From Bacteroidales bacterium (GTDB lineage: Bacteria; Bacteroidota; Bacteroidia; Bacteroidales; UBA932), in NCBI GenBank assembly GCA_012522855.1, contig JAAYJQ010000017.1, forward strand, positions 124,001 through 188,000: a stretch of 64,000 nt of DNA, written 5' to 3'. Below, in pieces: positions 31,450 through 60,706 of this stretch. The notes under the pieces are model-generated. The model worked only from the letters and a program-made list of their open reading frames with translations, did no database searches and was not told the DNA's origin. Numbering within the stretch: position 1 is the first letter of the stretch; each line of letters starts with the position of its first letter. A program made the translations under genes and the position numbers.

Positions 31450-31513
31450 TTCCATGAGAAGATTTGTAACAACTACGTTTCTGGACAAGATAAAATTTTA
31501 AATAATAGACAAT

Positions 31514-34500
31514 ATGAACAAACGTATTGCAACTATCCTGACAGTCTTTAGCCTTTTTATGACCACAGCGCTCTTGTTCGCCCAGACCCGGGTCGACGTG
31601 TCCGGTGTCGTCAAAGACGAGGCTGGACAGCCCGTGATCGGCGCCAGCGTTGTAGTCAAGGGCTCAACAACCGGTGCCGCCACGGATATTGATGGCCGCT
31701 ACTCCATTTCTGCTCCGAGCGAGGCGATCCTCGAATACTCGTATGTGGGGATGATCACTGTAGAAGAACCCGTTCGTGGAAGAACGGTCATTGACATCGT
31801 GCTCCGCGAGGACTACACCGCCCTTGAAGGTGTCGTTGTCGTTGGCTATGGCACACAAAAAAGAGGATCGATCACGGGATCCGTCGCTGCAGTGAGCGGG
31901 GAAGACGTCGTCAAGACCAAGACCGAAAATCCCCAGAATATGCTCACTGGACGCGTGCCGGGCGTTCGCGTGTGGCAAAGAACAGCTGAGCCCGGTTCTT
32001 ATGATGCCAGACTCGATATTCGAGGCCTGGGATCCCCGCTTGTTGTCATCGATGGTGTCCCCAGAGGGATGGACGACTTCCAAAGGCTTGCTCCCGGCGA
32101 CATTGAGAACGTCTCCGTCCTGAAAGATGCCGCCGCGGCCATCTACGGTCTCCGCGGAGGCAACGGTGTCATCCTTGTCACCACCAAAGCGGGCAAGGTC
32201 GGCAAGGCAAAGGTCAGTTATGACGGCAACTACACATTCCAGACCCCTGCAAGCTTGCCGCGCCAGATGGACGCCATCAGTTCCATGCGTCTCGTCAACG
32301 AACGCGGATCCGGAGGCCTCGAGGGCGGGGCACATGAATTCGATGCTGAAACCATCCAAAAGTACATTGACGGGGAACTTGTCGGAACCGACTGGAACAG
32401 TCTTGTCGTCCAGAATATTGCCCCTCAGTTCCGGCACGACTTCAGCATCAGCGGCGGATCCGAGAAGATTCAGTACTATGTGGGACTGGGTTACTTCTAC
32501 CAAGAAGGTTTCTGGAAAGGAGGTGATCTCAATTATAACAAGTACAATTTGAGATCCAACATCACCGCGGAAATGTTCGACGGGATGAAGTTCAATCTCA
32601 ATCTTTCCGCCTACTCGGACAGCCAGCATAATCCATACGATAATTCAGAGCTCATCATCCGCTACTGGTGGAAGCAGAGCACAATCTGGAAGGCGTATGC
32701 CGATCCGGAGCAGACGATGCTCAATTACCAAGATCTCGAACTAGACTGGAACTCTGCTGCCCGTGTCGATTCGGACATCTCCGGTTACCGCAGGAACGAC
32801 AGGAAGAACATGACCCTGACGACTTCCTTTGACTATGACTTTGGCGCGCTTAGCGATGCGCTGCAAGGACTTCACGCCAAAGGGATGTTCAGTTACGACT
32901 ATCTTTTCGCCCAGAATGAAACTTATAGGAAGGAATACTATCAGTACGCTTTCGACGAGAATACAGGCACTTATAACCAGAAACTTTATGCCGATTCTTC
33001 TCCCAACCAGCTGACGCGTGTTGACAACACATACGGCCAGTGGCTGGCCCAAGCCCTCCTTTCGTATGACAGGGATTTTGAGAAACACCATGTCGGAGGT
33101 GTCGTCGGCTGGGAAGTCCAAAGAATGGACAGCAACGGATTCTCCGGTTTTACGAACCTTGAATTCGCAACTCCATACTTCACGGCCTCTTCTATCGAAA
33201 ATCATCAGGTTTCGCAGGGATCTCTTTATGACTTTGCCTATAAATCGCTCTTCGGCCGTCTCAACTACGGTTATGACAACAGGTATCTCCTTGAAGGTCA
33301 GTTCCGCTACGACGGATCCTCCAAGTTCTATCAAGGACATCAATGGGGATTCTTCCCTTCCGTTTCTGCCGGTTGGCGCGTTTCGGAAGAGCCTTTTGTA
33401 AAGAATACTCCCGCGCTCGCCTTCATCAACAACCTCAAACTGCGCGTCAGTTATGGTGAAATCGGCGATGACGGCAATGCAAACTACGAGTGGGCGACAG
33501 GCTATGTCTATCCTGCGGCGTCCCTTACCAAACATGGTTTCTACACAAGCCGCGCGCCCGTTTACCACCTTGGTTCTTGGGTCATGAGGGCCAATCCGAT
33601 GGCGCTTGCCAACCACAATGTCACGTGGCTGACCAACAAGACATTCAATGCCGGTGTCGATTTCGAACTCTGGAAAGGTCTTCTTGGCGGGTCTTTCGAC
33701 TACTTCCGCCGCCACAGGACCGGTCTTATGGCCCGTAATACCGCGGCTCTTCCTACGATTATAGGCGCGACGGCTCCTCTTGAGAATATGAACGATGACG
33801 AACACAAGGGATTCGAACTCGAACTTTATCATCGCAACAGGGTCGGAGATTTCGACTATCAGGTAAAAGGGATGCTGACCATTACCCGTCAGGTTTGCCT
33901 TGATTACAACAAGGACCAACAATACGGAAATTCTTGGGACAACTGGAGAAACAACAATCTCTACCAGCGTTATCAAGGTATCCAGTGGGGCTACGAAGTT
34001 GTCGGCCGCTACGAGAGCTGGGAAGACATTTGGTCTTATGACAAATATAAAGACAACGGTATCAAGCCGGGAAATTTCAAGTATCTCGACTGGAACGGAG
34101 ACGGTGAAATCAACGGGCTTGACGTCCATCCTTACACTTTTAACCAGATTCCGTGGATGAACTTCTCTTTGTCCTTCGACGGAAGTTGGAAGAATTTGGA
34201 CCTCAGTATCCTGTTCCAAGGTTCCGCGCTCGGCTCGGTCCAATTTGGCGAACCGCAGCTCGGTGTCTGGGGACAGCACGGAGGCGGTATGCTCGAACAG
34301 TTTTACGACAGGTGGCATCCGTCTGAAGAGACCTTTGATACCTATGACCAGACCATCACTTGGATAAAGGGAACCTATGCCTACGGAGGAACGTCGGCGG
34401 ACGCCAATTCCGACTTCAATATCCAGCCGATAGACTACTTGAGACTCAAGTCCGTTGAAATCGGTTATACGCTTCCGAGAATACGCTCCATCCGTGATCT

Positions 34501-34645
34501 CGGTATCAGAATCTACGCCAATGCTTACAATCCATTCACGTGGACCGGCGTCAAGTACATTGATCCCGAACATCCGGCGGATTCCTATGGTCGCCTGTAT
34601 CCTTTGAACAAGTCATACACGATAGGCCTTAACCTTACTTTCTAA
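31514..34645 (+). CDS. SusC/RagA family TonB-linked outer membrane protein (module 1)
   Basis: 1043 aa; N-terminal CarbReg domain, VVVGYGTQKRGSITGSVAAV, GLRGGNGVILVTTK, C-terminal YPLNKSYTIGLNLTF. Confidence 0.97.
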   Translation: MNKRIATILTVFSLFMTTALLFAQTRVDVSGVVKDEAGQPVIGASVVVKGSTTGAATDIDGRYSISAPSEAILEYSYVGMITVEEPVRGRTVIDIVLREDYTALEGVVVVGYGTQKRGSITGSVAAVSGEDVVKTKTENPQNMLTGRVPGVRVWQRTAEPGSYDARLDIRGLGSPLVVIDGVPRGMDDFQRLAPGDIENVSVLKDAAAAIYGLRGGNGVILVTTKAGKVGKAKVSYDGNYTFQTPASLPRQMDAISSMRLVNERGSGGLEGGAHEFDAETIQKYIDGELVGTDWNSLVVQNIAPQFRHDFSISGGSEKIQYYVGLGYFYQEGFWKGGDLNYNKYNLRSNITAEMFDGMKFNLNLSAYSDSQHNPYDNSELIIRYWWKQSTIWKAYADPEQTMLNYQDLELDWNSAARVDSDISGYRRNDRKNMTLTTSFDYDFGALSDALQGLHAKGMFSYDYLFAQNETYRKEYYQYAFDENTGTYNQKLYADSSPNQLTRVDNTYGQWLAQALLSYDRDFEKHHVGGVVGWEVQRMDSNGFSGFTNLEFATPYFTASSIENHQVSQGSLYDFAYKSLFGRLNYGYDNRYLLEGQFRYDGSSKFYQGHQWGFFPSVSAGWRVSEEPFVKNTPALAFINNLKLRVSYGEIGDDGNANYEWATGYVYPAASLTKHGFYTSRAPVYHLGSWVMRANPMALANHNVTWLTNKTFNAGVDFELWKGLLGGSFDYFRRHRTGLMARNTAALPTIIGATAPLENMNDDEHKGFELELYHRNRVGDFDYQVKGMLTITRQVCLDYNKDQQYGNSWDNWRNNNLYQRYQGIQWGYEVVGRYESWEDIWSYDKYKDNGIKPGNFKYLDWNGDGEINGLDVHPYTFNQIPWMNFSLSFDGSWKNLDLSILFQGSALGSVQFGEPQLGVWGQHGGGMLEQFYDRWHPSEETFDTYDQTITWIKGTYAYGGTSADANSDFNIQPIDYLRLKSVEIGYTLPRIRSIRDLGIRIYANAYNPFTWTGVKYIDPEHPADSYGRLYPLNKSYTIGLNLTF

Positions 34646-34664
34646 CGTTATAAGTTGCAAGAAT

Positions 34665-36734
34665 ATGAAAAAAATTATATGCATTCTGTCAATCGCCTTC
34701 TTCGCCGCGGTCTCCTGCACGACCCTTGTCATTCCGCCGAAGAATATCGTCACGGACGATGACCTGATGTCCAGCCAGTCGGGCCTGAAAATCTATTTGA
34801 CAAGATTGTACAGTCAAATGCCTTGGGAAGACTTCAAGTACATGGCTCAGTGGGGTTTCAGCGGAAACTCGTGGTTGGGTTGCCTTGGTATTGAAGGGAC
34901 AGGGGAGGCAGTCAACAGGGACGGTATCTGCGCGTCATTTACAGGCGAGAACACACCGTGGTGGGGCCTTTCTTATACTTTGATTCATGATGCGAATCAT
35001 CTGATTGAGAAATTTCCCGACTACAAGGACAATTATCCGGAAATCGCTTACAACGAATTTCTCGGCCAGGCTTATTTTATCCGGGCGTACTCGTATTACC
35101 AGATGGCTCGCCGTTACGGTGGGGTTCCGATTATAAAGAACGAGATCAGTTATCCTTTCGAGGGAGAAATTGAAGTGCCGCGTTCTTCCGAAAAGGAAAC
35201 ATGGGATGCGATTCTTGAAGACTTCGATGCCGCCGTAGAACTTCTTCCGGCCAGCGCTACATTCAGCGGTACTGCCGACAAGTACGCCGCCCTTGCTTTC
35301 AAGGCGGAGGCGATGCTTTACGCAGGTTCCGTCGCCAAGTACAACGAACAAGTTTCCGGCCGCTTGACCGGTTTCGGTGAGAAAACGGGGGTCCGGGTCA
35401 TCGGTTTTGCAGAGGACGAGTGGCAGGCTTGCTCTAACAAGTATTTTTCGGAAGCGTACAAGGCCGCATCGGAAGTGATCAAGTCCGGCAGGTATTCCTT
35501 GTACATGAAGCAGTGGGCCGAAGGAGACAAGGAAGCGCAATACCAAAATATGAACGCAATGTGGAGAGATCCCGCAAGTCCGGAGAACATCCTCGTAATG
35601 AAGTATGAATATCCCACCCTTTCGCACGGTCTTGACGCATACAGCTCGCCTTGGATCTACAGAATGCCTCTTTCCGCAGGAACGTGTCCAACGGAAGATT
35701 TCATGGAACTCTTCGACGGGTTCGATCGCTATCCGAATGGAACCATCAGGGTTACCGACGGGACAGACCATTCCAACGGCAACTACATCCTTTATGAAGA
35801 ACCGTTGGACTTTTTTGCCAATGTGGAACCCCGGCTTCGCGCATATGTCATCTTTCCGGGAGATTTTTTCAAGAAAGATGTAATTGAGATCAGGGCCGGC
35901 ATCTATACGGGCAATCTTCCTATCAAGGTACTGAAGGCTGACTACAGCTACGCTCAGCGCGGTCGCGGGCATTGGGACCAAGACTGCTTCAAGGGGAGTA
36001 CGAAAACCCTGTTCATGAGCCCCAACGTCAACACGGAAAAGGTTACCTATAAAAATGCCACGACGGGCGAAGATGTCACGACCTATGCCTCCGGCGCAAA
36101 CGGCCCCTTCTATACGAATGCGGAATCTACGGTTACGGGCCTTTATCTGCGCAAGTACCTCGATCCCGACAGGGCGCTCGAAGACATCGGCGAAGGGAAG
36201 AGTGATCAGCCATTCATTCTTATGAGGTATGCCGATGTTCTCCTTGCCGCCGCCGAAGCCGGAGTTGAGCTATCCATCGCCGGTGTCGCTTCCCCTACAG
36301 GCGACAACATGTTACAGACCGCGACGGAGGCCATCCGGGCGATTCAAAAAAGAGCCGGGGCAAATGTCCTTTCTACAATGCTGAAAGGAGACACTGAGAG
36401 CCGCGATCTTGTTCGCAAGGAACGCCGCAAGGAACTGGCTTTCGAACACAAGTCCAAGTGGGACATTCGCCGCTGGCGGGTCGTGGACGAGCAGAACAGA
36501 AAAGGATTCTGGGGGGTTGAAAAGGATCTAACCACTTGGTCCGACGGAACTCAATTCGAATTCCAAGGGTTTTTCCCTTTCTATTCTTCACAGGCTGACA
36601 AGTGGTTCTTCGATATCGCTTTCATGGATTGCGCCCGCAAGACCTTCAGTTACTCCCCTGTCGACTACTACTTCGGAATTCCCGGAGGAGAAGTCACGAA
36701 GAGCAAGTACATTGATCAGCAGCCTAACAGATAA
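34665..36734 (+). CDS. SusD/RagB family nutrient-binding lipoprotein (module 1)
   Basis: Lipobox VSCTT; AYFIRAYSYYQMARRYGGVPII; RKERRKELAFEHKSKWDIRRWRV. Confidence 0.96.
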   Translation: MKKIICILSIAFFAAVSCTTLVIPPKNIVTDDDLMSSQSGLKIYLTRLYSQMPWEDFKYMAQWGFSGNSWLGCLGIEGTGEAVNRDGICASFTGENTPWWGLSYTLIHDANHLIEKFPDYKDNYPEIAYNEFLGQAYFIRAYSYYQMARRYGGVPIIKNEISYPFEGEIEVPRSSEKETWDAILEDFDAAVELLPASATFSGTADKYAALAFKAEAMLYAGSVAKYNEQVSGRLTGFGEKTGVRVIGFAEDEWQACSNKYFSEAYKAASEVIKSGRYSLYMKQWAEGDKEAQYQNMNAMWRDPASPENILVMKYEYPTLSHGLDAYSSPWIYRMPLSAGTCPTEDFMELFDGFDRYPNGTIRVTDGTDHSNGNYILYEEPLDFFANVEPRLRAYVIFPGDFFKKDVIEIRAGIYTGNLPIKVLKADYSYAQRGRGHWDQDCFKGSTKTLFMSPNVNTEKVTYKNATTGEDVTTYASGANGPFYTNAESTVTGLYLRKYLDPDRALEDIGEGKSDQPFILMRYADVLLAAAEAGVELSIAGVASPTGDNMLQTATEAIRAIQKRAGANVLSTMLKGDTESRDLVRKERRKELAFEHKSKWDIRRWRVVDEQNRKGFWGVEKDLTTWSDGTQFEFQGFFPFYSSQADKWFFDIAFMDCARKTFSYSPVDYYFGIPGGEVTKSKYIDQQPNR

Positions 36735-36751
36735 TACGGAAGATTACAACA

Positions 36752-37573
36752 ATGAAAAAGACAATTTATTACATTATGACGGCCGGCGTCCTGGCGCTCG
36801 GACTCCCGTCCTGCTCCTTCTTTGAGATTGACAATTACGCCCAACCTGAGGAAACGGTCAAGGGCGTAGTCATCGACGTCGCAACAGGCGAACCGGTCCT
36901 CACGGAGCAGAGTACCAATGGTATCCGTGTCAGGATGACAGAGCTTAGCTATGGCCCGAACGTCATACACAATCCGGACTTCTACTGCCGTGACGACGGT
37001 TCTTTCCAGAACACGAAGGTCTTCAAGGGCAACTATAACATCCGCGTCGACGGACCTTTCATCCCCATTGTCAGGGAGAACCCGGACGGCGAACTGATCG
37101 AAGACAACTCCATAACCTGCGATGTGAAGGGCACGACAGAGCTCAGATTCGAAGTTGAACCCTTCCTCAAGGTTGAGTTTGTCGGCGAACCCGTTGTCAG
37201 CGGAGGTAAAATCACGGCACAGGTGAAAGTCACCAGAGCCGTCTCTGTCGAAAGATTCCGGGAACAGGTCGAGCCGATGGGCGGCTACAATTCCAACTTT
37301 ACGAACGTAACGGATGTCAGGTTGTTCGTCAGCTATTCCTCAACCTGCAGCCAGCGAAGTCAGTACAGTGCATTGAGTTCCAAGATAGAGTATGGCGGGG
37401 CTTCTTTCGAGAGCCATCTCGGCGAACCGATCACGATGGTTTCGAGCGGGACCGCCAAGCCCAACAGGAAACTCTTTATCCGCGCTGCAGCGCGGATCAA
37501 CTACGGCACTCCCGCGGGCTCCGGAACCCGTCGCTACAACTATTCCGAAGTCAAGGAAGTCAATATTCCGTGA
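36752..37573 (+). CDS. DUF3823-type lipoprotein (module 1)
   Basis: SCSFFEIDNYAQPEETVKGVVIDVATGEPVLTEQ; position after susD. Confidence 0.85.
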   Translation: MKKTIYYIMTAGVLALGLPSCSFFEIDNYAQPEETVKGVVIDVATGEPVLTEQSTNGIRVRMTELSYGPNVIHNPDFYCRDDGSFQNTKVFKGNYNIRVDGPFIPIVRENPDGELIEDNSITCDVKGTTELRFEVEPFLKVEFVGEPVVSGGKITAQVKVTRAVSVERFREQVEPMGGYNSNFTNVTDVRLFVSYSSTCSQRSQYSALSSKIEYGGASFESHLGEPITMVSSGTAKPNRKLFIRAAARINYGTPAGSGTRRYNYSEVKEVNIP

Positions 37574-37575
37574 TT

Positions 37576-39768
37576 ATGTTGAAGCGAGCCTTTGTCGCAG
37601 CATGCATTTTTTTGCTATGCTGCTGCCAGAATACTGGCCAAGAAGCCGGTCAACGAAAGGATGCCAAGACTACTTTTCAAACGTCCAGCATCTGGAAACC
37701 GACCTTGGACAACCGGGCTGACGCAGTCATGATCTACGGTGTCGGCGGCAACCCTTCCGATCGTGTCCGGGGCAACAGACCCTCGTTCGAAGATCGGGCC
37801 CTCTCATGGAAGGAAAGGGGCTACGAGACTGACTTCATGACGGGAATCGCCTGGGGGTCTTATCAGGACTATTTTATCGGTCTTTGGGACGGGGAACCGC
37901 ATCTGGACGAAGGACAGGTCCAAGCCAATGGCGACACCATTTGGCACGGAAGAATGGTTCCCTACATTGTCCCGACCGAGAATTACCTCAAGTATTTCAA
38001 GGAACGGCATGTCAAGCGCGTGATTGACGCAGGCATTGACGATCTTTATTTCGAAGAGCCGGAATTCTGGAACAGGGCCGGTTACAGCGAAGCCTTCAAG
38101 CGTGAGTGGAAAGCCTATTACAACACGGATTGGCGTCCCCAGCACGAGTCTCCCGAGGCCACCTACCTGTCCAACAAGCTGAAGTATTTCTTGTACTACC
38201 GCGCCCTGGACGAAGTGAGCCGCTATGCAAAGGAATATGGTCGGACGAAGGGGATGGAGGTGCGCTGCTATGTGCCGACGCATTCCTTGCTTAATTATTC
38301 TCAATGGAACATCGTCAGCCCGGAAGCCAGTCTTGCTTCGCTTCCGGGCATCGACGGCTACATCGCGCAGGTCTGGACCGGAACCGCCCGCACCGCGAAC
38401 ATATTCAATGGAAAGAGCAAGGAAAGGACGTTCGAGACTGCTTTCCTGGAATATGGATGCGTAGCTTCCATGACGGAACCAACCGGTCGCAGGGTCTGGT
38501 TCCTGACCGATCCTATCGAGGATTGGCCCCGAGACTGGGAGGACTATCGCCGAAACTATCATGCAACCTTCGCTGCCCAGCTGCTTTATCCGAACATCGC
38601 GGACTATGAAATCATGCCGTGGCCGGAGCGTATCTATGAAGGCTTGTATCGCAAGAGCGCGGATAGCGAAGAACGGATCCGCATTCCGAAGGACTATTCC
38701 ACGATGATGCACGTAATGATCAATACGCTGCATGAAATGCCGGTGACGAACCAACGGCTTAACGGATCGCAAGGTATCGGTATCGTGATGGCGAATTCCC
38801 TGATGTTCCAGAGCCTGCCGACCCACGATGGTTACGAGGATCCCCAATTCTCCAATTTCTTCGGCCAAGCGATGCCGCTGCTCAAGAGTGGAATTCCGGT
38901 CAAGATCGTACACCTGGAGAATGTGGACTACAAAAAAACCTTGGCGGACATCCGCGTGCTGCTATTGTCCTATTCCAATATGAAGCCTATGGATCCGAAT
39001 GCGCATAAGCGATTGGCGGACTGGGTCAAGAAGGGAGGAATCATACTCTACTGCGGACGTGACAAGGATCCTTTCCAGAGCGTGTCCGAGTGGTGGAATA
39101 AGGATGGGAATGCCTTTGCCGCCGCTTCCGATCATCTGTTCGCTCTGATGGGAATCGATGCGGGGGCTCCCGAAGGGACCTATTCCTACGGCAAGGGAAC
39201 GGTGCGGATCCTCCGTGCCGATCCGAAAGAATATGTGCTGGAGAGCGGCGCGCACGCAAAACTGCTTGCGGTGGTAAAGGAATTGTATGAGGATCGCGCC
39301 CAAGCGGGAAGCCTCGAATCCAAAAACCATTTCTATCTGGAAAGGGGACCGTACACCATTGTGGCCGTGATGAACGAGAGCGTGAATGACGCACCCTTCC
39401 TCAAGGACGGAGTTTACATCGACCTGTTCGATCCTCAACTTCCCATTTTGTCGGAAATCCGCGTTGAGGCCGGTTCACAAGGATTTTTCTATGACCTCTC
39501 CGAGGCGGACCCTTCCCGTCCGCAGATCCTGGCGCAAGCTAGCAGGGCATACGAAGAGATTGTCGATGGAAAGACCTATTCCTTCTTGGCAAAAGGACCG
39601 CTTGAAACAATCAACGCTTCGCGTATCCTTCTTCCGTCCAAACCCGTCAGCGTAACGGTGAACGGAACGGAAAGCCTTGAAGAAGGCTGCTGGGACGAGA
39701 ACAGCCATACCTATCTGCTCGGATTTGATAACGATCCCGACGGTGTAGCCGTCCGCTTTGAATGGTAG
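37576..39768 (+). CDS. Putative secreted glycosidase-like lipoprotein, family not recognised
   Basis: Lipobox CCCQN; possible TIM-barrel segment (RVIDAGIDDLYFEEPEFW...) and a later glutamine-amidotransferase-like segment (LADIRVLLLSYSNMKPMDPNAHKRLADWVKKGGIILYCG). ATG at 37576 preferred. Confidence 0.55.
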   Translation: MLKRAFVAACIFLLCCCQNTGQEAGQRKDAKTTFQTSSIWKPTLDNRADAVMIYGVGGNPSDRVRGNRPSFEDRALSWKERGYETDFMTGIAWGSYQDYFIGLWDGEPHLDEGQVQANGDTIWHGRMVPYIVPTENYLKYFKERHVKRVIDAGIDDLYFEEPEFWNRAGYSEAFKREWKAYYNTDWRPQHESPEATYLSNKLKYFLYYRALDEVSRYAKEYGRTKGMEVRCYVPTHSLLNYSQWNIVSPEASLASLPGIDGYIAQVWTGTARTANIFNGKSKERTFETAFLEYGCVASMTEPTGRRVWFLTDPIEDWPRDWEDYRRNYHATFAAQLLYPNIADYEIMPWPERIYEGLYRKSADSEERIRIPKDYSTMMHVMINTLHEMPVTNQRLNGSQGIGIVMANSLMFQSLPTHDGYEDPQFSNFFGQAMPLLKSGIPVKIVHLENVDYKKTLADIRVLLLSYSNMKPMDPNAHKRLADWVKKGGIILYCGRDKDPFQSVSEWWNKDGNAFAAASDHLFALMGIDAGAPEGTYSYGKGTVRILRADPKEYVLESGAHAKLLAVVKELYEDRAQAGSLESKNHFYLERGPYTIVAVMNESVNDAPFLKDGVYIDLFDPQLPILSEIRVEAGSQGFFYDLSEADPSRPQILAQASRAYEEIVDGKTYSFLAKGPLETINASRILLPSKPVSVTVNGTESLEEGCWDENSHTYLLGFDNDPDGVAVRFEW

Positions 39769-39822
39769 CGCTGCGGCCACAAAGTCCGTGAATGCGGAGA
39801 ATTCTCGGGACGAATCCCTTCC

Positions 39823-39870
39823 AAAGCCCCCTTCAGATAATACTCATCTAGAGGGGGCTCTTTCTTTTAT
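39823..39870 (+). terminator. Intrinsic terminator between the two PUL modules
   Basis: GCCCCCT...AGGGGGC with TCTTTCTTTT tail. Confidence 0.7.
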
Positions 39871-39919
39871 GGCTATCCATATAATAGAATATTAAGAAAT
39901 TAATTCTTTTTCTTCGACG

Positions 39920-39966
39920 ATTAATCTTCTATTAACCTATAAATTAATCTGAAACGTTTTATTTTA
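39920..39966 (+). promoter_or_regulatory. Putative operator/promoter, duplicate of 27523-27569
   Basis: ATTAATC (39920) -11- ATTAACC (39931) -12- ATTAATC (39943), 9 nt, TTATTTTA (39959-39966). Confidence 0.55.
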
Positions 39967-39984
39967 TCTTCATCATTAAAAATA

Positions 39985-40212
39985 ATGAATAAAAAACTTC
40001 GATGACTCGTTTTAATCTTCTATCGGCAGTTGCTTTTCCTTTCGCCGCAGCGATCACGTTTTCTTCTTATAGCGCCACTGTGATGCACGGCCCGGGACGA
40101 ATTTGACGACAAGAAAGCGAGCGATACCGTTTCAATGTCAGGAACACATCCGGAGAATCAGAATAAAGTACCGTAAGGAGCAGACCTTGAAATTTCTCGC
40201 AACAGTCAAATA
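39985..40212 (+). pseudogene. Internally deleted remnant of a GxGYxYxP gene paralogous to 27597-29516
   Basis: 5' part ACTCGTTTTAATCTTCTATCGGCAG...TTTTCTTCTTATAGCG matches the start of the 27597 gene; 3' part GATGCACG...GACAAGAAAGCGAGCGAT..GAGCAGACCTTGAAATTTCTCGCAACAGTCAAATAA matches its end. Confidence 0.85.
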
Positions 40213-40257
40213 ACCTAACAATGAATCATTATCCTTATCGCAAAACCAATAAATAGT

Positions 40258-42120
40258 ATGAAACAGAAATTTGTTTCGAAGATTCCTCTGCTTTGCTCCG
40301 TATTTTTCGGGCTCATTTTCTTTTTTTGGTCCTGCCGGGACAAAGAAGAGGAAGTGACCTACTGGAAAGAAAGTGTCGTAGGAACAGCGGACATTTCCGG
40401 AAGGGTCACTGACAATTTCGGAACTCCGCTGGATGCGGTGACCGTCGACTGCTTGGGGACCGGTCTTAAGAAGGAAGTGTTTGCATCTGCCACCACAAAG
40501 GCTGACGGGACGTTCTTTATTTCGGCCGTGCCGTCAACCGCAAGGTACATCAGATTTACAAAAGAAGGCTACGCAAGCGCCTCTTGCACCCTTGAGCCAA
40601 AACGTTTTGCGGAAGAGAGTTCAATCTCATTGGAAGCCTCCCTCGAATTCTCGATGGCTAAGATCACAGGAACGATCCTGGATGCAGGTTCCGGAAAACC
40701 TATGTCAGGAGTCCTTGTCGCATCCGGGCTGTCCTCCTCAAGGACGGGAGATGATGGCGTATATTCAATAGAGGGCTTGACAATCAGCAATTATGATCTT
40801 ACTTTCACGTCTCCTGACGGATCCCGATATTCACGAAGCGTGAATGCTTCCGAGTTCGTTGATGGTGTGATCATGATGCCGGTTGTAAGGCTCGGCGGCG
40901 AGGATATATGGCCAGGACACAAGTGGCAAGAAATCGCTGACGCGCCATACTGGTATGGCAATGATTTCAGAGGGTCTACAGGTTTCTCCGGTCGATGGGA
41001 CTGGTCTGCCGGTTATATGTCCGCCTGGCCTTGGTATGGCGAGTTTCGCTATGAGGCTGAGGGCTGCGCTGTTGTATGCAACACGAATTACGGACAGCCT
41101 GGTGAAACAGACCATTTCAATGGTTATACCTATGGAAAGAAGTTCATCTACGAGGGCAACCATATTATGACGGTGGACCTTATGACCCACTTTGCAACCA
41201 CGCCGGAGACCGCCTTGCATTTTGGTGTAGAAGTGCTCGACCTTACCGCACAGGCAACGAAGGCTGTCAAGGTCGGTGAAGATACCCATTATGGAGACTA
41301 TGCCGCGCACAGTTTCGATCTTTCAGCATTTATCGGCCATGAGATTGTGATCGCATACGGACTCTATTGGTACGACGGGACAAATGGTCATCTTGCAACA
41401 AGACGTGTTTCATTTGCCAACAGGCCCATGAATAAGGACGAGGTGATTCCCGGAACCAAATTCGAAGGAATGGAGGCGTGGGACAGCTTCACTAAGGAGA
41501 ACATCCTTACCATGACCATCAACAACAATACTTCTTTCTCCGGGCTTAATTTCGGCCAGAATGCCGGTACTGAGGAAAACGGGGTCAGGCGCGTCCATCA
41601 TCCCGGTGAGCAGCAGGGCTACAGCGCATTTGCAGGCACAAACCACATCATCATGAACTGGACGCTCCAATATGTGAGAGGTGGTGTTGAGCCGGTTAAT
41701 CCTGACGGATATACGATCAAGTCTGCAGGTGATGGCAGCGCAAGATATGACAATCCCGACACCTATCTTGTCAATCGATTCCATATTGGGCCCACAAATG
41801 ACCGTATGCGAATTCTTGTAAGAAGTTACCATAAGACCTACAGAACCGTATTCAGAGTTACGGCTGTGACCGACGATGGTACCGCAGTCGCGGTGGATCC
41901 GGCTTCATACAAGGCCGACAAGACGGGTCCGGTCGACAACGGTAAGGGATGCTGGTATCTTGTCCACAACAGAGGGACGGGAAATCCTGCTGAATACGCC
42001 GAATTCGTCTATGACCTGAACAAATATCAGGGACAGAACGTCGCAATCGCCATAAGCGTGCATAGAGCGGATATGGGCGGCGAAGGCAAGCTTTGTATCT
42101 ACAGTATTGAAATGGATTAA
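40258..42120 (+). CDS. Carboxypeptidase-regulatory-like domain lipoprotein (module 2)
   Basis: MKQKFVSKIPLLCSVFFGLIFFFWSCRDK; collinear with 29560-31449. Confidence 0.8.
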   Translation: MKQKFVSKIPLLCSVFFGLIFFFWSCRDKEEEVTYWKESVVGTADISGRVTDNFGTPLDAVTVDCLGTGLKKEVFASATTKADGTFFISAVPSTARYIRFTKEGYASASCTLEPKRFAEESSISLEASLEFSMAKITGTILDAGSGKPMSGVLVASGLSSSRTGDDGVYSIEGLTISNYDLTFTSPDGSRYSRSVNASEFVDGVIMMPVVRLGGEDIWPGHKWQEIADAPYWYGNDFRGSTGFSGRWDWSAGYMSAWPWYGEFRYEAEGCAVVCNTNYGQPGETDHFNGYTYGKKFIYEGNHIMTVDLMTHFATTPETALHFGVEVLDLTAQATKAVKVGEDTHYGDYAAHSFDLSAFIGHEIVIAYGLYWYDGTNGHLATRRVSFANRPMNKDEVIPGTKFEGMEAWDSFTKENILTMTINNNTSFSGLNFGQNAGTEENGVRRVHHPGEQQGYSAFAGTNHIIMNWTLQYVRGGVEPVNPDGYTIKSAGDGSARYDNPDTYLVNRFHIGPTNDRMRILVRSYHKTYRTVFRVTAVTDDGTAVAVDPASYKADKTGPVDNGKGCWYLVHNRGTGNPAEYAEFVYDLNKYQGQNVAIAISVHRADMGGEGKLCIYSIEMD

Positions 42121-42131
42121 TGCCTGGAACT

Positions 42132-45100
42132 ATGAAGAGATTTATTGCAAGCCTTTTGGCGATTGTCAGCCTTACATTGATTTCCGCTACATCATTTGCC
42201 CAGAACATAATTACGGTTTCAGGAACCGTGGTTGACGAGAACAATGATCCTGTCGTGGGAGCCTTTGTGATCGTCCAAGGCACGAAGGATGGCACATCGA
42301 CCGATGCCGGTGGCAGATATTCAATCAACGCGCCGTCCAACAGCACGCTGGAGTTCTCCTTCTTGGGAATGAAAACCGCATCTGTGGTTGTCAACAACAG
42401 GGGCATCATTAACGTCATTCTCGAAAACGACACCAACCTCCTTGAGGAAACGGTCGTTATCGGATATGGAACCGTGAAGAAAGGTTCTATCACGGGCGCT
42501 GTTTCAGCAGTCGGTGGAGAGGACATGGTCAAGACAAAGACTGACAACACCCAGAACATGCTTACCGGTCGTATTCCCGGTGTCCGAGTATGGCAGAAGA
42601 CGGCTGAGCCCGGACAATATAACGCTGCTCTTGATATTCGCGGAATGGGTTCACCTCTTGTCGTTATTGATGGCGTGCCACGCGAAATGTCTGATTTTCA
42701 AAGACTTTCTCCTACTGATATTGAGAATGTGTCCGTCTTGAAGGATGCCTCTGCAGCCATCTATGGTCTTCGGGGCGGTAATGGTGTTATCTTGATTACA
42801 ACGAAGAGCGGACAGGTCGGCAAGATCAAAACCAGCTATGATGGCAGTTTCACTTTCCAGACTCCAGCCAGCCTGCCACGTCTGATGGATGCGATCAATT
42901 GCTTGGAACTGACGAACGAGCGCTGCTTGATGGGAATGGAAGGAGGAGCACCTGAATATCCGGAAACTCTTGTTGATCGTTATCGCAGCGGAGAGCTTCA
43001 GGGAACTGACTGGAATGGTCTTGTCATTCAAGATATGGCCCCTCAGTCCCGTCAAACCCTTAGCATCAGTGGGGGTACGGACAAGCTCCGGTTTTATTTC
43101 GGTCTTGGTTATTTTTACCAAGAGGGTTTCTGGAAGAGCCGTGATCTCAATGACACAAAGTACAACCTAAGGGCAAATGTCACCGCAGAGTTGCTCAAGG
43201 GCTTGACCTTCAACACAAATGTCTCCGGTTACTACGAGCACCTTCACAACCCTCTTGATGATCCTGAACTCATCATCCGTTTCTGGTATTCACAGAGTAC
43301 AATCTGGAAGGCCTATGCTGACCCGGAACAGACTATGCTTAACTACAAGGACTTGAACCTTGACTTGAACTCTGTGGCTCGTATCTACTCGGACATTTCC
43401 GGTCATAGGATTAATTACAGGAAGAATTTCAACCTCAACAATTCCCTGACCTACGATTTGGGTACCCTTTCCGATGTTCTCAACGGCCTATCCATCAAGG
43501 GCTTGTTCAGTTGGGATTACATCGGAACAGAATATGAGCAGTACCGAAAGGAATACTATCAGTATGCTTATAACGAACTCACCGGTGGCTATGACCAAAG
43601 GCTTTATGCGAAATCTTCTCCAAGCCAGCTGACCAGAGGCGACAATCACTATAAATCAATGTTGGCTCAGGCGCTTGTACAATACGACCGCAAGTTCAAC
43701 AAACACAATGTTGGAGCCACGGTCGGTTGGGAGATCCAAAAGAAGGGCGCCAACGGCTTCAATGCGTTCGGTGACCTCGTTTTCGCCACACCCTACTTTA
43801 CAGGTCTGGACGTCAGTGGACATCAGGTCAGCCAAGGCGCTCTTTACGATTATACGTATGAATCCCTTATCGGAAGGCTCAATTACTCATTTGACGACCG
43901 TTATCTTTTTGAGGGTCAGTTCCGTTATGATGGTTCATCACGATTCTACAAGGGACATCGCTGGGGATTCTTCCCTTCGGTTTCCGCCGGATGGAGAATT
44001 TCTCAGGAACCTTGGCTTAAGAACGGTTCCTTGAACTTCATCAACCAACTCAAACTTCGCGCGAGTTATGGCGAGATCGGCAGTGATGGATCTGACTATG
44101 AATGGGCAACCGGATACACCTACCCTGCGGGGGCTCTTAGAACCGATGGCTATTACACGGGGCAGGCTCCGATCTACTATCTTGGCTCGTGGGTGATGCG
44201 CGCGGATCCCAAGGCTCTGCCAAATGAAAACATCACTTGGTTCACCAACAGAACATTCAATATCGGTGTTGACTTCGAGGCATGGAATGGTCTGTTTGGA
44301 TTCACCTTTGATTTCTTCCGCCGTTTGAGACATGGGCTTCTTGCCAGAAATGCTTCTGAGATGCCGACCATTGTTGGGTCGGTTCCTCCTCTGGAGAATG
44401 CAAACAGTGACAGCCATCTTGGTTTTGAACTTGAACTATCTCATCGTAACCATATCGGAGACTTCCATTACCAGACCAAGGCGATGATTTCCATCACCCG
44501 AAACAAGGCCATCACTTACATCGAGACCACCAAGTACGGAAACTCCTACGACAATTGGAGGAACAATACCAGAAACAATCGTTATCAGGGCATTGTCTTC
44601 GGATATGAGACTGTTGGCCGCTATGATGGGTGGGAGGATATCTGGACTTACGACACCAATAAGAGCAATGGTATCCTGCCAGGTGACTTCAAGTATCTTG
44701 ACTGGAACGGTGACGGACAAATCAACGGACTTGACGTCCATCCTTACACCTTTGGGCAATCTCCCTGGTGCAACTTTTCCATCTCTCTCGATGCTCAGTG
44801 GAAGGGTTTTGACGCAAGCCTCCTCTTTCAGGGCGCGACCCTTGGATCCGTCGCTTACGGTCAATCTCAGCTCGGCGTCTATGGCCAGCATGGGGGCGGT
44901 ACGCTGCAACAGTACTTGGACAGATGGCATCCTCTTAATGTCAAGACTGATGTTTATGACCAATCCCTTGAGTGGGTAAAGGGCACCTATCTGTTCGGAG
45001 GCAATTCCGCATATTCAAACTCCGACTTCAACACCCAACCCGTTGACTACATCCGTTTGAAGTCAATTGAGATCGGCTACACGTTGCCGAAAATTCAGAG

Positions 45101-45257
45101 ACTGCAAGACCTCGGCGTCCGAATCTATGCGAATGCCTATAATCCTCTGACTTTCACGAAAGTCAAGTACATCGACCCTGAGCACCCTGCAGACTCCTAT
45201 GGGCGTCTCTACCCGCTCAACAAGTCTTACACAATCGGGCTGAGCATCAACTTCTAA
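42132..45257 (+). CDS. SusC/RagA family TonB-linked outer membrane protein (module 2)
   Basis: VVIGYGTVKKGSITGAVSAV, GLRGGNGVILITTK; collinear with 31514-34645. ATG at 42132 (MKRFIA) preferred. Confidence 0.97.
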   Translation: MKRFIASLLAIVSLTLISATSFAQNIITVSGTVVDENNDPVVGAFVIVQGTKDGTSTDAGGRYSINAPSNSTLEFSFLGMKTASVVVNNRGIINVILENDTNLLEETVVIGYGTVKKGSITGAVSAVGGEDMVKTKTDNTQNMLTGRIPGVRVWQKTAEPGQYNAALDIRGMGSPLVVIDGVPREMSDFQRLSPTDIENVSVLKDASAAIYGLRGGNGVILITTKSGQVGKIKTSYDGSFTFQTPASLPRLMDAINCLELTNERCLMGMEGGAPEYPETLVDRYRSGELQGTDWNGLVIQDMAPQSRQTLSISGGTDKLRFYFGLGYFYQEGFWKSRDLNDTKYNLRANVTAELLKGLTFNTNVSGYYEHLHNPLDDPELIIRFWYSQSTIWKAYADPEQTMLNYKDLNLDLNSVARIYSDISGHRINYRKNFNLNNSLTYDLGTLSDVLNGLSIKGLFSWDYIGTEYEQYRKEYYQYAYNELTGGYDQRLYAKSSPSQLTRGDNHYKSMLAQALVQYDRKFNKHNVGATVGWEIQKKGANGFNAFGDLVFATPYFTGLDVSGHQVSQGALYDYTYESLIGRLNYSFDDRYLFEGQFRYDGSSRFYKGHRWGFFPSVSAGWRISQEPWLKNGSLNFINQLKLRASYGEIGSDGSDYEWATGYTYPAGALRTDGYYTGQAPIYYLGSWVMRADPKALPNENITWFTNRTFNIGVDFEAWNGLFGFTFDFFRRLRHGLLARNASEMPTIVGSVPPLENANSDSHLGFELELSHRNHIGDFHYQTKAMISITRNKAITYIETTKYGNSYDNWRNNTRNNRYQGIVFGYETVGRYDGWEDIWTYDTNKSNGILPGDFKYLDWNGDGQINGLDVHPYTFGQSPWCNFSISLDAQWKGFDASLLFQGATLGSVAYGQSQLGVYGQHGGGTLQQYLDRWHPLNVKTDVYDQSLEWVKGTYLFGGNSAYSNSDFNTQPVDYIRLKSIEIGYTLPKIQRLQDLGVRIYANAYNPLTFTKVKYIDPEHPADSYGRLYPLNKSYTIGLSINF

Positions 45258-45269
45258 AAGGACGGAAAT

Positions 45270-47333
45270 ATGAAAAAGATAGTTTTCATTATAGTATCGG
45301 CAATACTTGCGGCGACATCCTGTGTAAGCCTCGATGTCCCTCCTAAAAACATCGTGACGGACGATGACTTGCTTTCAAGCCAGTCCGGAATGGCGATCTA
45401 TCTGGCGAGAATGTACTCACAGATGCCTTGGGAGGATTTCAAATATGTGGCAGCCAATGGTTTTGACGGAAGTACCTTCCTCGGGTGTCTAGGCATCGAG
45501 GGAACCGGCGAGGCCATTGAGCGCGACCCTATCACGAAAGCCTTCACAAATGAAAAAGCCTCTCTGTGGGGTAGAGCCTACACCTTGATTCATGATGCGA
45601 ACCACTTGATCAAGACTCTCCCTCAGTACAGGGACAATTATGTCGAGATGGCCTATAATGAGTTTCTCGGCCAGGCATATTTTGTGAGAGCCTTTGTTTA
45701 CTCGCAGATGGCAAAGAGATTTGGCGGAGTTCCTATTGTGAAGGAAATCATTTCTTATCCGTTCGAGGGCGATGTTGAGATTGCCCGATTTTCCGAGAAG
45801 GACACGTGGGATGCTATCCTTGAGGACTGGGACATGGCGATTTCTCTTCTTCCTCCAACGCCGACATTTGACTGTTCCGCACACAAATACGCAGCCCTTG
45901 CCTTCAAATCAGACGCTATGCTTTATGCCGGGTCCGTTGCAAAGTACAACGAGACTGTCACCGGACGTCTTACCGGTCTTGGCAAGAAGACCGGAATCCG
46001 CGTGATCGGATTTGAAGAAGAAGAATGGTTCGACTGTTCCAACAAATATTTCCTGGAGGCGTACAAGGCGGCGAAGGAAATCATTGACAGCGGCGTATAT
46101 TCACTCTATATGAAATCTTGGAAGGCCAATGATCCGGAAGCGCAGTACAAGAATATGGTCGATATGTGGAGGGATCTCTCAAGTCCGGAGAACATCCTCA
46201 TCAGAAGGTATGAATATCCATACCTCAGCCACGGGCTTGATGCCTACAGCTCCCCCTGGATATTCAGAATGCCTCTTTCTGCCGGCACCTGCCCGACCGA
46301 AGATTTCATGGAACTTTTCGATGGCTTCAACCGCTATCCCAGCGGCGGCATCCGTGTGACTGACGGCACAGACCACACGAACGGCAATTATCTTCTCTTC
46401 GACAAGCCGATGGATTTCTTCAAGGGTGTCGAGCCACGTCTTCGCGCCTACATTATCTTCCCGGGTGATGTGTTCAGAGGCCGTGAGATTGAAGTAAGAA
46501 TGGGTATCTACACCGGAGATGTTCCCATCGAGACACTGAAGGACAGCTACGAATTCTCTCAGAGGGGGCGTCTCTACCAACATCTGTCCATGTACAATGA
46601 TAAGAACAACAAGACGCTTTTCCTGAGTCCGAACGTTAACACTGAAGAAGTGACTTATTTGGACGAGAATGGCGATACGGTCACTTGTTATGCAGCCGGA
46701 GAGAATGGTCCGTTCTATACCAACACCGAGTCCACAATGACCGGTCTGCATCTTAGAAAATACCTTGATCCCGATCTTCAACTTAAGGACATCGGAGAAG
46801 GAAAGTCCGACCAGCCGTTCATCCTTACAAGGTACGGAGAGGTGCTCCTTAACGCTGCAGAGGCTGCTGTGGAGCTTTCTCTGGGAGGCATTCAATCTCC
46901 AGATGGAGATGACATGCTTCAGGTTGCTACCGATGCCGTCAAGGCCATTCAGACCAGAGCCGGCGCCAATGTGCTGACAGAAGATCTCAGCTCAGATATT
47001 GAAAGCCGGAACATCGTTCGGAAGGAACGCCGCAAGGAACTTGCCTACGAGCAGAAGAGCAAGTGGGACATCAGAAGATGGAGGGTCCAGGATGAGAACA
47101 ATCGTGATGGCTTTTGGGGCATGATAACAGATCACACCAAATACAGCGATGGAACAAGATACGGATTCAAGGGATTCTATCCGTTCTATTCAACAACCGC
47201 GCACAAATGGTTCTTTGACATCAGTTTCGAGGGAAGACAGACCTTTTCCTACTCTCCTCTCGACTACTACTTCGTTATCCCCGGCGGCGAGGTGACAAAG
47301 AGCAAGTACATTGATCAGCAACCTAACAGATAA
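45270..47333 (+). CDS. SusD/RagB family lipoprotein (module 2)
   Basis: TSCVSLDVPPKNIVTDDDLLSSQSGMAIYLARMYSQMPWEDFKY; collinear with 34665-36734. Confidence 0.96.
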   Translation: MKKIVFIIVSAILAATSCVSLDVPPKNIVTDDDLLSSQSGMAIYLARMYSQMPWEDFKYVAANGFDGSTFLGCLGIEGTGEAIERDPITKAFTNEKASLWGRAYTLIHDANHLIKTLPQYRDNYVEMAYNEFLGQAYFVRAFVYSQMAKRFGGVPIVKEIISYPFEGDVEIARFSEKDTWDAILEDWDMAISLLPPTPTFDCSAHKYAALAFKSDAMLYAGSVAKYNETVTGRLTGLGKKTGIRVIGFEEEEWFDCSNKYFLEAYKAAKEIIDSGVYSLYMKSWKANDPEAQYKNMVDMWRDLSSPENILIRRYEYPYLSHGLDAYSSPWIFRMPLSAGTCPTEDFMELFDGFNRYPSGGIRVTDGTDHTNGNYLLFDKPMDFFKGVEPRLRAYIIFPGDVFRGREIEVRMGIYTGDVPIETLKDSYEFSQRGRLYQHLSMYNDKNNKTLFLSPNVNTEEVTYLDENGDTVTCYAAGENGPFYTNTESTMTGLHLRKYLDPDLQLKDIGEGKSDQPFILTRYGEVLLNAAEAAVELSLGGIQSPDGDDMLQVATDAVKAIQTRAGANVLTEDLSSDIESRNIVRKERRKELAYEQKSKWDIRRWRVQDENNRDGFWGMITDHTKYSDGTRYGFKGFYPFYSTTAHKWFFDISFEGRQTFSYSPLDYYFVIPGGEVTKSKYIDQQPNR

Positions 47334-47345
47334 AACTATCGTAAA

Positions 47346-48170
47346 ATGAAAAGAATACTCTCATATATTATCGCCGCAGGAATCACAACCCTCGGATTCT
47401 CAGCTTGTTCTCTGTTCGAGATTGATAATTTCGACGCTCCGGAAGAAACCATCACCGGCAAGATCGTGGACATTGAGACGGGGGAGCCTGTTCTGACAGA
47501 ACAGAATGGAAGGGGAATCAGAATCCGCTTGACTGAGCTCAGCTGGGGAGAGAATGTGACCTACAATCCGGATTTCTACGCAAAAGATGACGGCACCTAC
47601 CGGAACACCAAGATCTTCAAAGGTCGCTACAATGTCCGCATTGACGGCCCGTTCATTCCGCTTTATCGTACAGCTCCAGATGGAACCGTGCTTGAAGATG
47701 CGACTGTCGAGACCGACATCAAGGGTGTCACCACTGTCGACTTCCTTGTCCAGCCTTTCCTGAAGGTTGAAATTATCGGCGATCCCATCGTCAGCGCCGG
47801 CAAAGTTACCGCTAATGTCCGTGTGACCCGCGCCACTACAAAGGAGGCGTTCCGCTCCAAAATTGAACCAATGGGGGGTTGGAAACCGGATTACATGAAC
47901 GTGACGGACCTTCGTCTTTATGTTGGATATTCTTCTACCTGCAACGGTGACAACCAGTATTCAAGCTGGTCAAATGTCATTGAGTATGGTGGAAACTCCT
48001 TCGAAGAAAAACTCGGAACCCTCGTCCCGATCACTTCGAAGGGAACGCTGAAACCCGGACGCAAACTCTTCATCCGAGCAGCGGCCAGAATCAATTACGA
48101 CACGCCCGCAGGAAGTGGTACCAGAAGGTATAACTTCTCTGAAGTCCGTGAAATTAATGTACCCGAATAA
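47346..48170 (+). CDS. DUF3823-type lipoprotein (module 2)
   Basis: SACSLFEIDNFDAPEETITGKIVDIETGEPVLTEQ; collinear with 36752-37573. Confidence 0.85.
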   Translation: MKRILSYIIAAGITTLGFSACSLFEIDNFDAPEETITGKIVDIETGEPVLTEQNGRGIRIRLTELSWGENVTYNPDFYAKDDGTYRNTKIFKGRYNVRIDGPFIPLYRTAPDGTVLEDATVETDIKGVTTVDFLVQPFLKVEIIGDPIVSAGKVTANVRVTRATTKEAFRSKIEPMGGWKPDYMNVTDLRLYVGYSSTCNGDNQYSSWSNVIEYGGNSFEEKLGTLVPITSKGTLKPGRKLFIRAAARINYDTPAGSGTRRYNFSEVREINVPE

Positions 48171-48216
48171 CATCTATTTTTCAATTCTTTAACATATGAT
48201 CCAATTTTTAACAATT

Positions 48217-50337
48217 ATGAAAAAAACAGCATTTTTCCTGGCGGCAATCTTGGCGATTGTTTCCTGTCAGAAAGAAATCCAAGTGTCAAGCGTCACTGTC
48301 GATCCTGCCAATGTCAGCATTGTTGTAGGAGGCAAGCAGCTTCTTAGAGCTACCGCAGCTCCTGCAGATGCTACTACAATCACAGAGACCGCATGGTCTT
48401 CTTCAAATGAGATGGTTGCCACTGTGGCTCCCACCGGTCTTGTAACAGCTGTTGCTCCTGGCGAAGCAACCATTTCCGCCGAGATTGGCGGTGTTGTCGG
48501 CACTTGCAAGGTTACGGTTACCGACACCGAGATCACAGGCATTGCCTTCAAGTCCTCTTCTGAGACAGCTATTGCTGTTACAGCAGGTGAAGAAAGGGAA
48601 CTTGAAATTATCTTCTCGCCGGATAACCCGACTAACAAGTCCGTCGAATGGAAGACGAGCGATTCAAAGATCGCTACTGTTACTCCCGGAGCGGACGGAA
48701 AGGCAACGGTTGTCTTTTCGGGATCCGGTGTTGTTGAGATCACGGCAACCACACAAGTGAGCAATCAGACCGCTTCCCAGAAATTCGTCATCCTCGGAGA
48801 TGCAAAACTTTATGTCATGGAAGAGACCATCTATGCCGGCAAGCCGGCTGTTTGGAAGGTCAATGCAGAGGCATATCCTGGAATTAAGGATGCGGTCTGG
48901 ACGGTAGGCGACAAGGAATACGAGGGCAATGAGGCCACATTCGCTGTCGATGTTGACCAGAGCTTCGAGGAAGCTGTCGAGGGAAAGGAATTTGGCAATG
49001 CAAGCGTCAAGCTTGTCGCCAAGATCGAGGGTGTTGAGGTCAGCGATGTCATTGATGTCCCCGTAGAGATCCTTTGGATCGAGAAGGATATCACAACTTG
49101 GTCAAGAAACGCCAACCCTGTATTCAACAAGGCCTGCACCAAGGTTTATTTCATCACTCGTAATCAGGATGGCGGCGGTCTTGCGGAAAGACATCTCATT
49201 CAGCTTGACCTTCAAACAAAGGAAATTGTTGAGGTCAACCTTAAGATGGACAAGGCTTCCATCAAAACCGACAATGGGGGTATGTTCTGCGTCAACCCGC
49301 TTAACGGAGACATCTATGCCTGCAATAACCAGGCTATCTATTGTTTTGCCGAGGCTGGACTCACGAAGAAGTGGCAATTTGATGTCCCTGTCGGTGATCC
49401 CAGCAAGATGCCGCCTTCTATTATGGTAGGAAGCGGCCCCGCGCTCAGCAACGACTGCTCAGTCCTCTTCGTGGCTTGCGGCAACAACATGTTCTATGCT
49501 CTCAACACAGCCACCGGCGAGAAACTTTCCGAACTCGACTTCAACGACAATGTTGAGACGTTCAACAGAAAGGGCAACAATTATACCAAGGGGCTTGGAG
49601 CATGCCAATTCGCTGTATGGGGTGATAACAACATCATTCTGCATAGAAATATCGGTCTCTCAAGCGTTGAATGGATCACTTTCAAGAACAACAAGCTCGA
49701 AATCGAGAAAGAATCCAATTCGGTAACAGGTTCAACGACCGATATCGCTTCCCCTATCATTGACAAGACCCAGACTTGGGTATATTTCATGGGCCACTCA
49801 ACAATCTGTTACATTCCTCTCAAGAGTTATGCGGATGCGCTTCATTTGACTGGAAGCGCTGACGGCAGAGGAATGCACATGAATGGTTGTCTCTCCGACG
49901 GTTACCTCTACACTCCAACCCAAAATGGATCTTGGATCATGCAGGTTGATGTTTCTGGAAGCTACCCGGTAAACGCTTATCGCAACATCTTTGAAGAAAG
50001 CGGCGGAAACAACAACAGAAACTATGATTCTGTATCTGCCGATGAGAATGGGTGCTTGTACTTTAACCACAGAGTGTCCGGCAGAATGTACCTGCTTAGA
50101 GGAACACCCAAGGAAGATGGTTCCTTCAATAACAGGGTTATTGCCAGCTTCCCCATGAACAACTATCAGGCATGTCTGAACGTCGGCGGCAACTATATGG
50201 TTACCTGCTGCCGTATCGACAACAGCATTTCAAGGATTTTCGTACGTTGCATCGGTGCAAACCGCGCATCCGGCTGGTCCGGAATGGGCGGCGATGTCTG
50301 TAGCACAAAGAACGCTAATCTCGTTTACGGAAACTAA
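48217..50337 (+). CDS. Ig-like (Big_2) domain lipoprotein with C-terminal beta-propeller-like region
   Basis: MKKTAFFLAAILAIVSCQKE; VSSVTVDPANVSIVVGGKQLLRATAAP...VTAVAPGEATISAEIGG repeats; propeller-like strands with ALSNDCSVLFVACGNNMFYALNTATGEKL. Confidence 0.75.
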   Translation: MKKTAFFLAAILAIVSCQKEIQVSSVTVDPANVSIVVGGKQLLRATAAPADATTITETAWSSSNEMVATVAPTGLVTAVAPGEATISAEIGGVVGTCKVTVTDTEITGIAFKSSSETAIAVTAGEERELEIIFSPDNPTNKSVEWKTSDSKIATVTPGADGKATVVFSGSGVVEITATTQVSNQTASQKFVILGDAKLYVMEETIYAGKPAVWKVNAEAYPGIKDAVWTVGDKEYEGNEATFAVDVDQSFEEAVEGKEFGNASVKLVAKIEGVEVSDVIDVPVEILWIEKDITTWSRNANPVFNKACTKVYFITRNQDGGGLAERHLIQLDLQTKEIVEVNLKMDKASIKTDNGGMFCVNPLNGDIYACNNQAIYCFAEAGLTKKWQFDVPVGDPSKMPPSIMVGSGPALSNDCSVLFVACGNNMFYALNTATGEKLSELDFNDNVETFNRKGNNYTKGLGACQFAVWGDNNIILHRNIGLSSVEWITFKNNKLEIEKESNSVTGSTTDIASPIIDKTQTWVYFMGHSTICYIPLKSYADALHLTGSADGRGMHMNGCLSDGYLYTPTQNGSWIMQVDVSGSYPVNAYRNIFEESGGNNNRNYDSVSADENGCLYFNHRVSGRMYLLRGTPKEDGSFNNRVIASFPMNNYQACLNVGGNYMVTCCRIDNSISRIFVRCIGANRASGWSGMGGDVCSTKNANLVYGN

Positions 50338-55621: not shown

Positions 55622-55623
55622 GC

Positions 55624-57719: not shown

Positions 57720-57761
57720 CGTGCGTATTCTCCGGACGAATCCATTTCAAGGCAACCCTTT

Positions 57762-59653: not shown

Positions 59654-59660
59654 AGGATTG

Positions 59661-60677: not shown

Positions 60678-60706
60678 AGTATTGATTGTAGAGATTGGAA
60701 ATCGTG

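Follow-up and report, generated by a model that had tools for sequence, protein, structure and literature searches.

The three direct heptamers upstream of the second of two tandem SusC/SusD modules very probably serve as operator for a transmembrane one-component activator, which is encoded by the ORF diverging from module 1 (24994-27474). Within the window, that is, the whole stretch of 64,000 nucleotides of a Bacteroidales bacterium analysed here, arrays of the same 11-12-9 layout precede three operons, and we propose from their sequences that these constitute one three-promoter regulon. More broadly, we consider it likely that the protein belongs to a phylum-wide, hitherto undescribed class of PUL regulators in Bacteroidota, in which a periplasmic kelch sensor is joined by one membrane helix to a cytosolic SARP activator. 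Such regulators would work by sigma adaptation in the manner of SARPs, with an operator of fixed 11-12-9 layout taking the place of the -33 element, and the repeat letters, which vary among paralogues (TTAAYC, TTAAGG, TTAATR) at fixed spacing, would represent a readable specificity code.

Gene content of the locus

Modules 1 and 2 are tandem paralogous SusC/SusD modules flanked by GH92, GH97 and GH2 genes (Table 1). The neighbouring SusC and SusD genes together with glycoside hydrolases identify the locus as a PUL, and the enzyme families suggest that it is of the alpha-mannan type. The third putative operator-promoter immediately precedes the minus-strand operon led by a GH92 gene.

Several of the encoded proteins deserve mention. 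The 732-aa protein at the end of module 1 (37570-39768) matches no Pfam or NCBIfam family. Its identity across Bacteroidota is about 50-70%, and it occurs in 37 of the 80 kelch-SARP loci described below; it is probably a key component of kelch-SARP PULs. The gene at 51743-55621 (minus strand) encodes a 1292-aa protein in which GH97 and GH92 catalytic domains are fused, while that at 55624-56814 (minus strand) encodes 396 aa without a Pfam match, in which an HxHxDH-like motif, THAHGDHYDH, points to a metallo-beta-lactamase fold.

Table 1. Features of the locus, with positions in the window
Feature	Position	Strand	Composition
Putative regulator	24994-27474	-	826 aa, divergent from module 1; predicted signal peptide, beta-sandwich (~29-215), kelch propeller (~228-537), membrane helix (~545-585), SARP-type winged helix and BTAD (~598-826)
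Module-1 operator (putative)	27523-27552	+	ATTAACC 27523, ATTAACC 27534, ATTAATC 27546
Module-1 -7-like box	27562-27569	+	TTAATTTG
Module 1	27597-39768	+	GxGYxYP gene, CarboxypepD_reg lipoprotein, SusC, SusD, DUF3823, conserved 732-aa protein
Intrinsic-terminator-like hairpin	39825-39859	+	T-rich tail; -21.4 kcal/mol, z -3.5; between module 1 and module-2 promoter
Possible weaker fourth half-site	39899-39905	+	ATTAATT, 21 bp upstream of module-2 heptamer 1
Module-2 operator (putative)	39920-39949	+	ATTAATC 39920-39926, ATTAACC 39931-39937, ATTAATC 39943-39949
Module-2 -7-like box	39959-39966	+	TTATTTTA; TAnnTTTG-type, weak match, register +1 also possible
GxGYxYP pseudogene	39993-40210	+	internally deleted; 5' part 39993-40074, 3' part ~40090-40210
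Module 2	40258-50337	+	CarboxypepD_reg lipoprotein, SusC, SusD, DUF3823, Big_2 protein
Third operon	51743-62953	-	GH92 (ATG 62953), PfkB kinase, D-lyxose/D-mannose isomerase, mannitol-dehydrogenase family, two without Pfam match, GH97-GH92 fusion
Third operator-promoter (putative)	62978-63024	-	TTTAATC 63024-63018, ATTAACC 63013-63007, TATAATC 63001-62995
Third -7-like box	62985-62978	-	TATCTTTA

Three arrays of the same geometry

The heptamer array reported upstream of module 2 in the preliminary description was recovered exactly, with periods of 11 and 12 bp. The values 11 and 12 given there are start-to-start periods (gaps of 4 and 5 bp) and its 9 is a true gap, namely the 9 bp between the third heptamer and the -7-like box. 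The 28-bp block CTTCTATTAACCTATAAATTAATCTGAA is common to 27529-27556 and 39926-39953 without any difference, as had been stated. In both module arrays the heptamers follow each other by one helical turn (11, then 12 bp). With the -7 box assumed at about -11 to -4, simple arithmetic places heptamers 2 and 3 at roughly -39 to -33 and -27 to -21. The -7 consensus of Bacteroidota promoters was taken from the literature (PMC7366714); a sigma-70 promoter scan gave no match, as expected in Bacteroidota. At the third promoter, on the minus strand, repeats and spacing are those of modules 1 and 2 and the spacer letters are different.

A composite of three TTAAYC repeats and the -7 box was found three times in the window at ≤1 mismatch and not once in 20 block shuffles. 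Scanning the 2.64-Mb genome for TTAAYC-N5-TTAAYC-N6-TTAAYC-N9-TAnnTTTR at ≤3 mismatches returned three sites, each with one mismatch and all in the window, and the reversed composite pattern returned none. The three sites precede module 1, module 2 and the GH92/isomerase/kinase operon, all within one locus. The loose triple pattern lacking the -7 box (≤3 mismatches) showed no enrichment over the reversed control; discrimination requires the composite including the -7 box, or stricter matching.

The divergent ORF is predicted to encode a membrane-tethered SARP-like protein

Pfam annotates only kelch in ORF 24994-27474. In the full-length structure model, a beta-sandwich is followed by a kelch propeller, a helix and a SARP domain. 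Inspection of the sequence places the predicted membrane helix at about 556-576, with Arg and Lys residues on its flanks; the C-terminus is predicted to be cytosolic and the long part before the helix periplasmic. A single-sequence search of the PDB with the regulator domain gave no match and a profile search matched mostly TPR proteins; the assignment to SARPs needed a fold comparison. An AlphaFold model of the C-terminal domain based on 61 homologous C-termini reached a pLDDT of 96.9, and Foldseek matched it to six PDB chains at E<1e-3, all EmbR or AfsR, with both subdomains covered. Among the 61 homologues, the two Pfam families matched most were BTAD (21/61, best 3.6e-6) and Trans_reg_C (12/61), with the window's own domain falling below the Pfam threshold for both (E 0.19 and 0.11, respectively). 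The C-terminal domain is thus predicted to adopt the SARP fold, in which BTAD comes after an OmpR-like winged helix.

SARPs bind direct repeats with a spacing of 11 or 22 bp, and 8 bp separate the 3' repeat from the -10 element (PMC10936776); sites of three heptamers are common (PMC10972967). The order of winged helix and BTAD, as seen in AlphaFold and Foldseek and in the Pfam matches of homologues, was found here, as were repeats 11/12 bp apart that end 9-10 bp from the -7 box. The SARP domain of classical members is N-terminal in a cytosolic protein; in our protein it lies at the C-terminus behind a membrane helix, and we therefore class the protein as SARP-like and not as a classical SARP. 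Compared with AfsR, ActII-ORF4, DnrI and the mycobacterial EmbR, it shares the winged helix and BTAD in the predicted fold and the direct repeats of about 11 bp, often three, that end 8-10 bp before the -10/-7 element. It differs in that the domain is tethered to the membrane and joined to a periplasmic kelch sensor, and in its occurrence in Bacteroidota with a proposed role in glycan uptake instead of antibiotic synthesis. Domain and operator logic are those of SARPs, but architecture, phylum and role are not.

Membrane one-component regulators of the CadC/ToxR type carry an N-terminal OmpR-type DNA-binding domain on a single-pass membrane sensor and have no BTAD. The kelch-SARP protein resembles them in combining a winged helix of the OmpR type with a sensor that crosses the membrane once, but its DNA-binding domain is C-terminal, it does have a BTAD, and its sensor is a different one.

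Array and putative regulator gene are linked across Bacteroidota

A DNA similarity search against 60 relatives showed that the whole promoter is not alignable outside the source genome, and orthologues were therefore reached via proteins. We collected 80 loci from public genomes (1.65 Mb in total), chosen by the regulator protein alone, from Bacteroidales, Sphingobacterium, Dysgonomonas, Prevotella/Xylanibacter, Draconibacterium, Maribellus, Ohtaekwangia, Chryseolinea, Algoriphagus, Belliella and others. This comparison of orthologous loci, which had been proposed as a check, showed that the array recurs across the phylum beside one type of regulator. It adjoins the regulator gene in 66 of the 80 loci (58 as divergent promoter, 8 just downstream) and accompanies it in 27 of 30 clusters at 60% identity, and a SusC homologous to that of the window is present in 67/80. 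In the 1.65 Mb, the composite site was found 49 times at ≤4 mismatches and its reverse not at all; when the spacing was varied, a sharp peak appeared at 11/12/9 (43 matches at ≤3 mismatches). The logo of 30 non-redundant sites reads TTAACC-TTAACC-TTAAYC, with gaps of 9 or 10, and no others, before the -7 box, and up to 14 of these 30 sites have a weaker half-site 20-21 bp upstream (≤1 mismatch).

No array adjoins the gene in the other 14 relatives; two of these cases are explained, and others lie at contig ends or have degenerate sites. At loci of Algoriphagus and Ohtaekwangia that seemed to be without a site, the array precedes the lipoprotein gene of the SusCD operon and the regulator is encoded at the far end. 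Whole-genome scans of ten carriers gave eight sites, five beside the regulator, two at the far end of a SusCD operon and one elsewhere. The scanned genomes of 4-7 Mb contain the array once or twice at most, almost always at the regulator locus. In the same genus, genomes G013 and G026 carry regulator and array, and the orthologue of the module in G014 has neither; in G054, from another family of the order, the regulator is nearby and the array precedes a GH92 gene. The site lying elsewhere, a one-mismatch composite in Draconibacterium sediminis (G069:C1:1115399; L239 / L247, local 7400-7445), has no adjoining PUL and points to a gene for a GTPase similar to a hydrogenase maturation factor.

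The probable promoter of module 2 and its history

The first gene of module 2 has decayed, as described previously: about 30 5' codons (39993-40074, with an early stop) and the last ~54 codons of GxGYxYP are left, and ~1.65 kb is missing internally compared with the module-1 copy. The 3' remnant plus junction (40072-40336) is 84% identical to 29335-29638. The flanks of the array had been said to have drifted, which is partly right, since modules 1 and 2 agree at 39/48 positions upstream, 45/49 in the array and 58/82 in the 5' remnant. Protein identity between the modules is 65% for SusC, 70% for SusD, 49% for the lipoprotein and 60% for DUF3823, and identity at 4-fold degenerate sites (26-33%) is at or near the random level of 27.5%, i.e. 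saturated. From the array through the remnant and up to the next gene, the two copies are 71-84% identical; counted from the regulator start codon (27468) as far as position 29638, where the lipoprotein gene starts, the identity is 74-84% wherever module 2 retains the sequence. This stretch is far more alike than the saturated coding sites, so its copying or conversion must postdate the divergence of the modules, and because of this later homogenisation the 28-bp identity alone is no proof of selection. The earlier argument from retention to selection is thus weaker than stated where it relies on identity; selection is instead supported by the third promoter and the orthologues, in which hexamers and spacing are kept with differing spacer letters.

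The proposal that the block is the operator/promoter driving module 2 is borne out, and is extended by a candidate regulator, which the preliminary description did not name: the array looks like an operator overlapping a Bacteroidota promoter, is preceded by a terminator-like hairpin, has the geometry seen at two other operons and recurs throughout the phylum. The terminator-like hairpin was not listed by a simple terminator scan, probably because of an internal stem mismatch. As it lies between module 1 and the array, module 2 probably requires a promoter of its own. A stretch at 39801-39851, which overlaps this hairpin, is 77.8% identical to 57727-57780 (51-54 bp).

Alternative explanations

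The block could have been conserved merely by recent promoter copying or gene conversion from module 1, with module 2 silent or read through from module 1. This would agree with the high similarity of the stretch around the array and with the weak -7 box of module 2, but it is unlikely given the terminator hairpin ahead of the array, the genes of module 2, which are still intact long ORFs, and the layout shared with distant species and with a third promoter that did not arise as a copy. Direct repeats of 11 bp are also used by OmpR/PhoB regulators, whose winged helix is of the same type as that of SARPs, and another response regulator of this kind, encoded elsewhere, might bind the heptamers, the kelch-SARP gene being a mere neighbour. 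We regard this as quite improbable: the array tracks the kelch-SARP gene across the phylum, and a global regulator should have many sites, not one or two per genome.

Control by one of the described classes of PUL regulators, HTCS (AraC-type), SusR or an ECF sigma/anti-sigma pair, appears highly improbable, although alpha-mannan PULs of B. thetaiotaomicron are under HTCS (PMC3878776). HTCS are likewise single-polypeptide transmembrane sensor-activators encoded beside SusCD operons, but the kelch-SARP protein has no kinase, receiver or AraC domain, and its sites have a period of 11/12 bp compared with two sites ~21 bp apart in the HTCS motif (PMC3878776); an AraC/HTCS reading was rejected for this spacing and for the absence of any HTH_18 protein from the source contig. 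SusR, too, is membrane-bound, senses in the periplasm and binds DNA through its C-terminal part, but its predicted sites are 67 or 77 bp apart (PMC3878776). Four SARP-type genes were found in B. xylanisolvens with the A4 profile, none of them adjoining starch sus genes within the regions retrieved. As for ECF sigma/anti-sigma control, neither SusC shows an STN match and the scanned ORFs include no sigma-factor gene.

Proposed mechanism and implications

In the activator reading, the periplasmic beta-sandwich/kelch part would sense an alpha-mannan-derived sugar or a partner protein, and the signal would pass through the single membrane helix to release or dimerise the cytosolic SARP-type domain. 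SARP protomers would then occupy adjacent heptamers at their spacing of 11/12 bp, and the last protomer, 9-10 bp before the -7 box, would take the position of the usual -33 element; RNA polymerase would be recruited via sigma region 4 as in AfsR. In this way a single regulator would activate both modules and the GH92/isomerase/kinase operon at once.

The PUL regulators described to date are mainly HTCS, SusR, ECF sigma/anti-sigma pairs and a few cytosolic families (PMC3878776 analyses known classes), and in the open-access literature searched we found no description of SARP, BTAD or kelch regulators in Bacteroidota or of PULs. If our reading is true, the membrane-tethered SARP adds a class of PUL regulator, SARP-type activation operates in a phylum whose primary sigma factor and -7 element are its own, and a DNA signature becomes available by which regulators can be matched to PULs with no need for expression data, as does an inducible promoter part for Bacteroides engineering. 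Direct tests are feasible, since related genes occur in B. xylanisolvens and Dysgonomonas, which can be cultured.

Divergent paralogues

A divergent paralogous regulator of G014 is accompanied by TTAAGG-11-TTAAGG-12-TTAAAG-9-TATTTTTG (L154, 8000-8170, minus strand), which ends in a perfect TAnnTTTG, and a distant paralogue of G012 by TTAATC-12-TTAACC-12-TTAACT-9-TATTATTG. Judging from these two sites, the altered letters at kept geometry suggest that repeat and recognition helix co-evolve. In B. xylanisolvens XB1A, a truncated kelch-SARP gene (L259, 9564-10583) stands directly before a SusC/SusD/DUF3823/GH92 set, and the gap contains TTAATA-11-TTAATG-11-ATAATG-9-TACTTTCG. Two further membrane SARP-type proteins of 486 and 520 aa (L258, 8790-10247; L156, 5062-6621) are too short for a full kelch sensor and are apparently encoded outside PULs; the membrane SARP family may be wider than glycan control.
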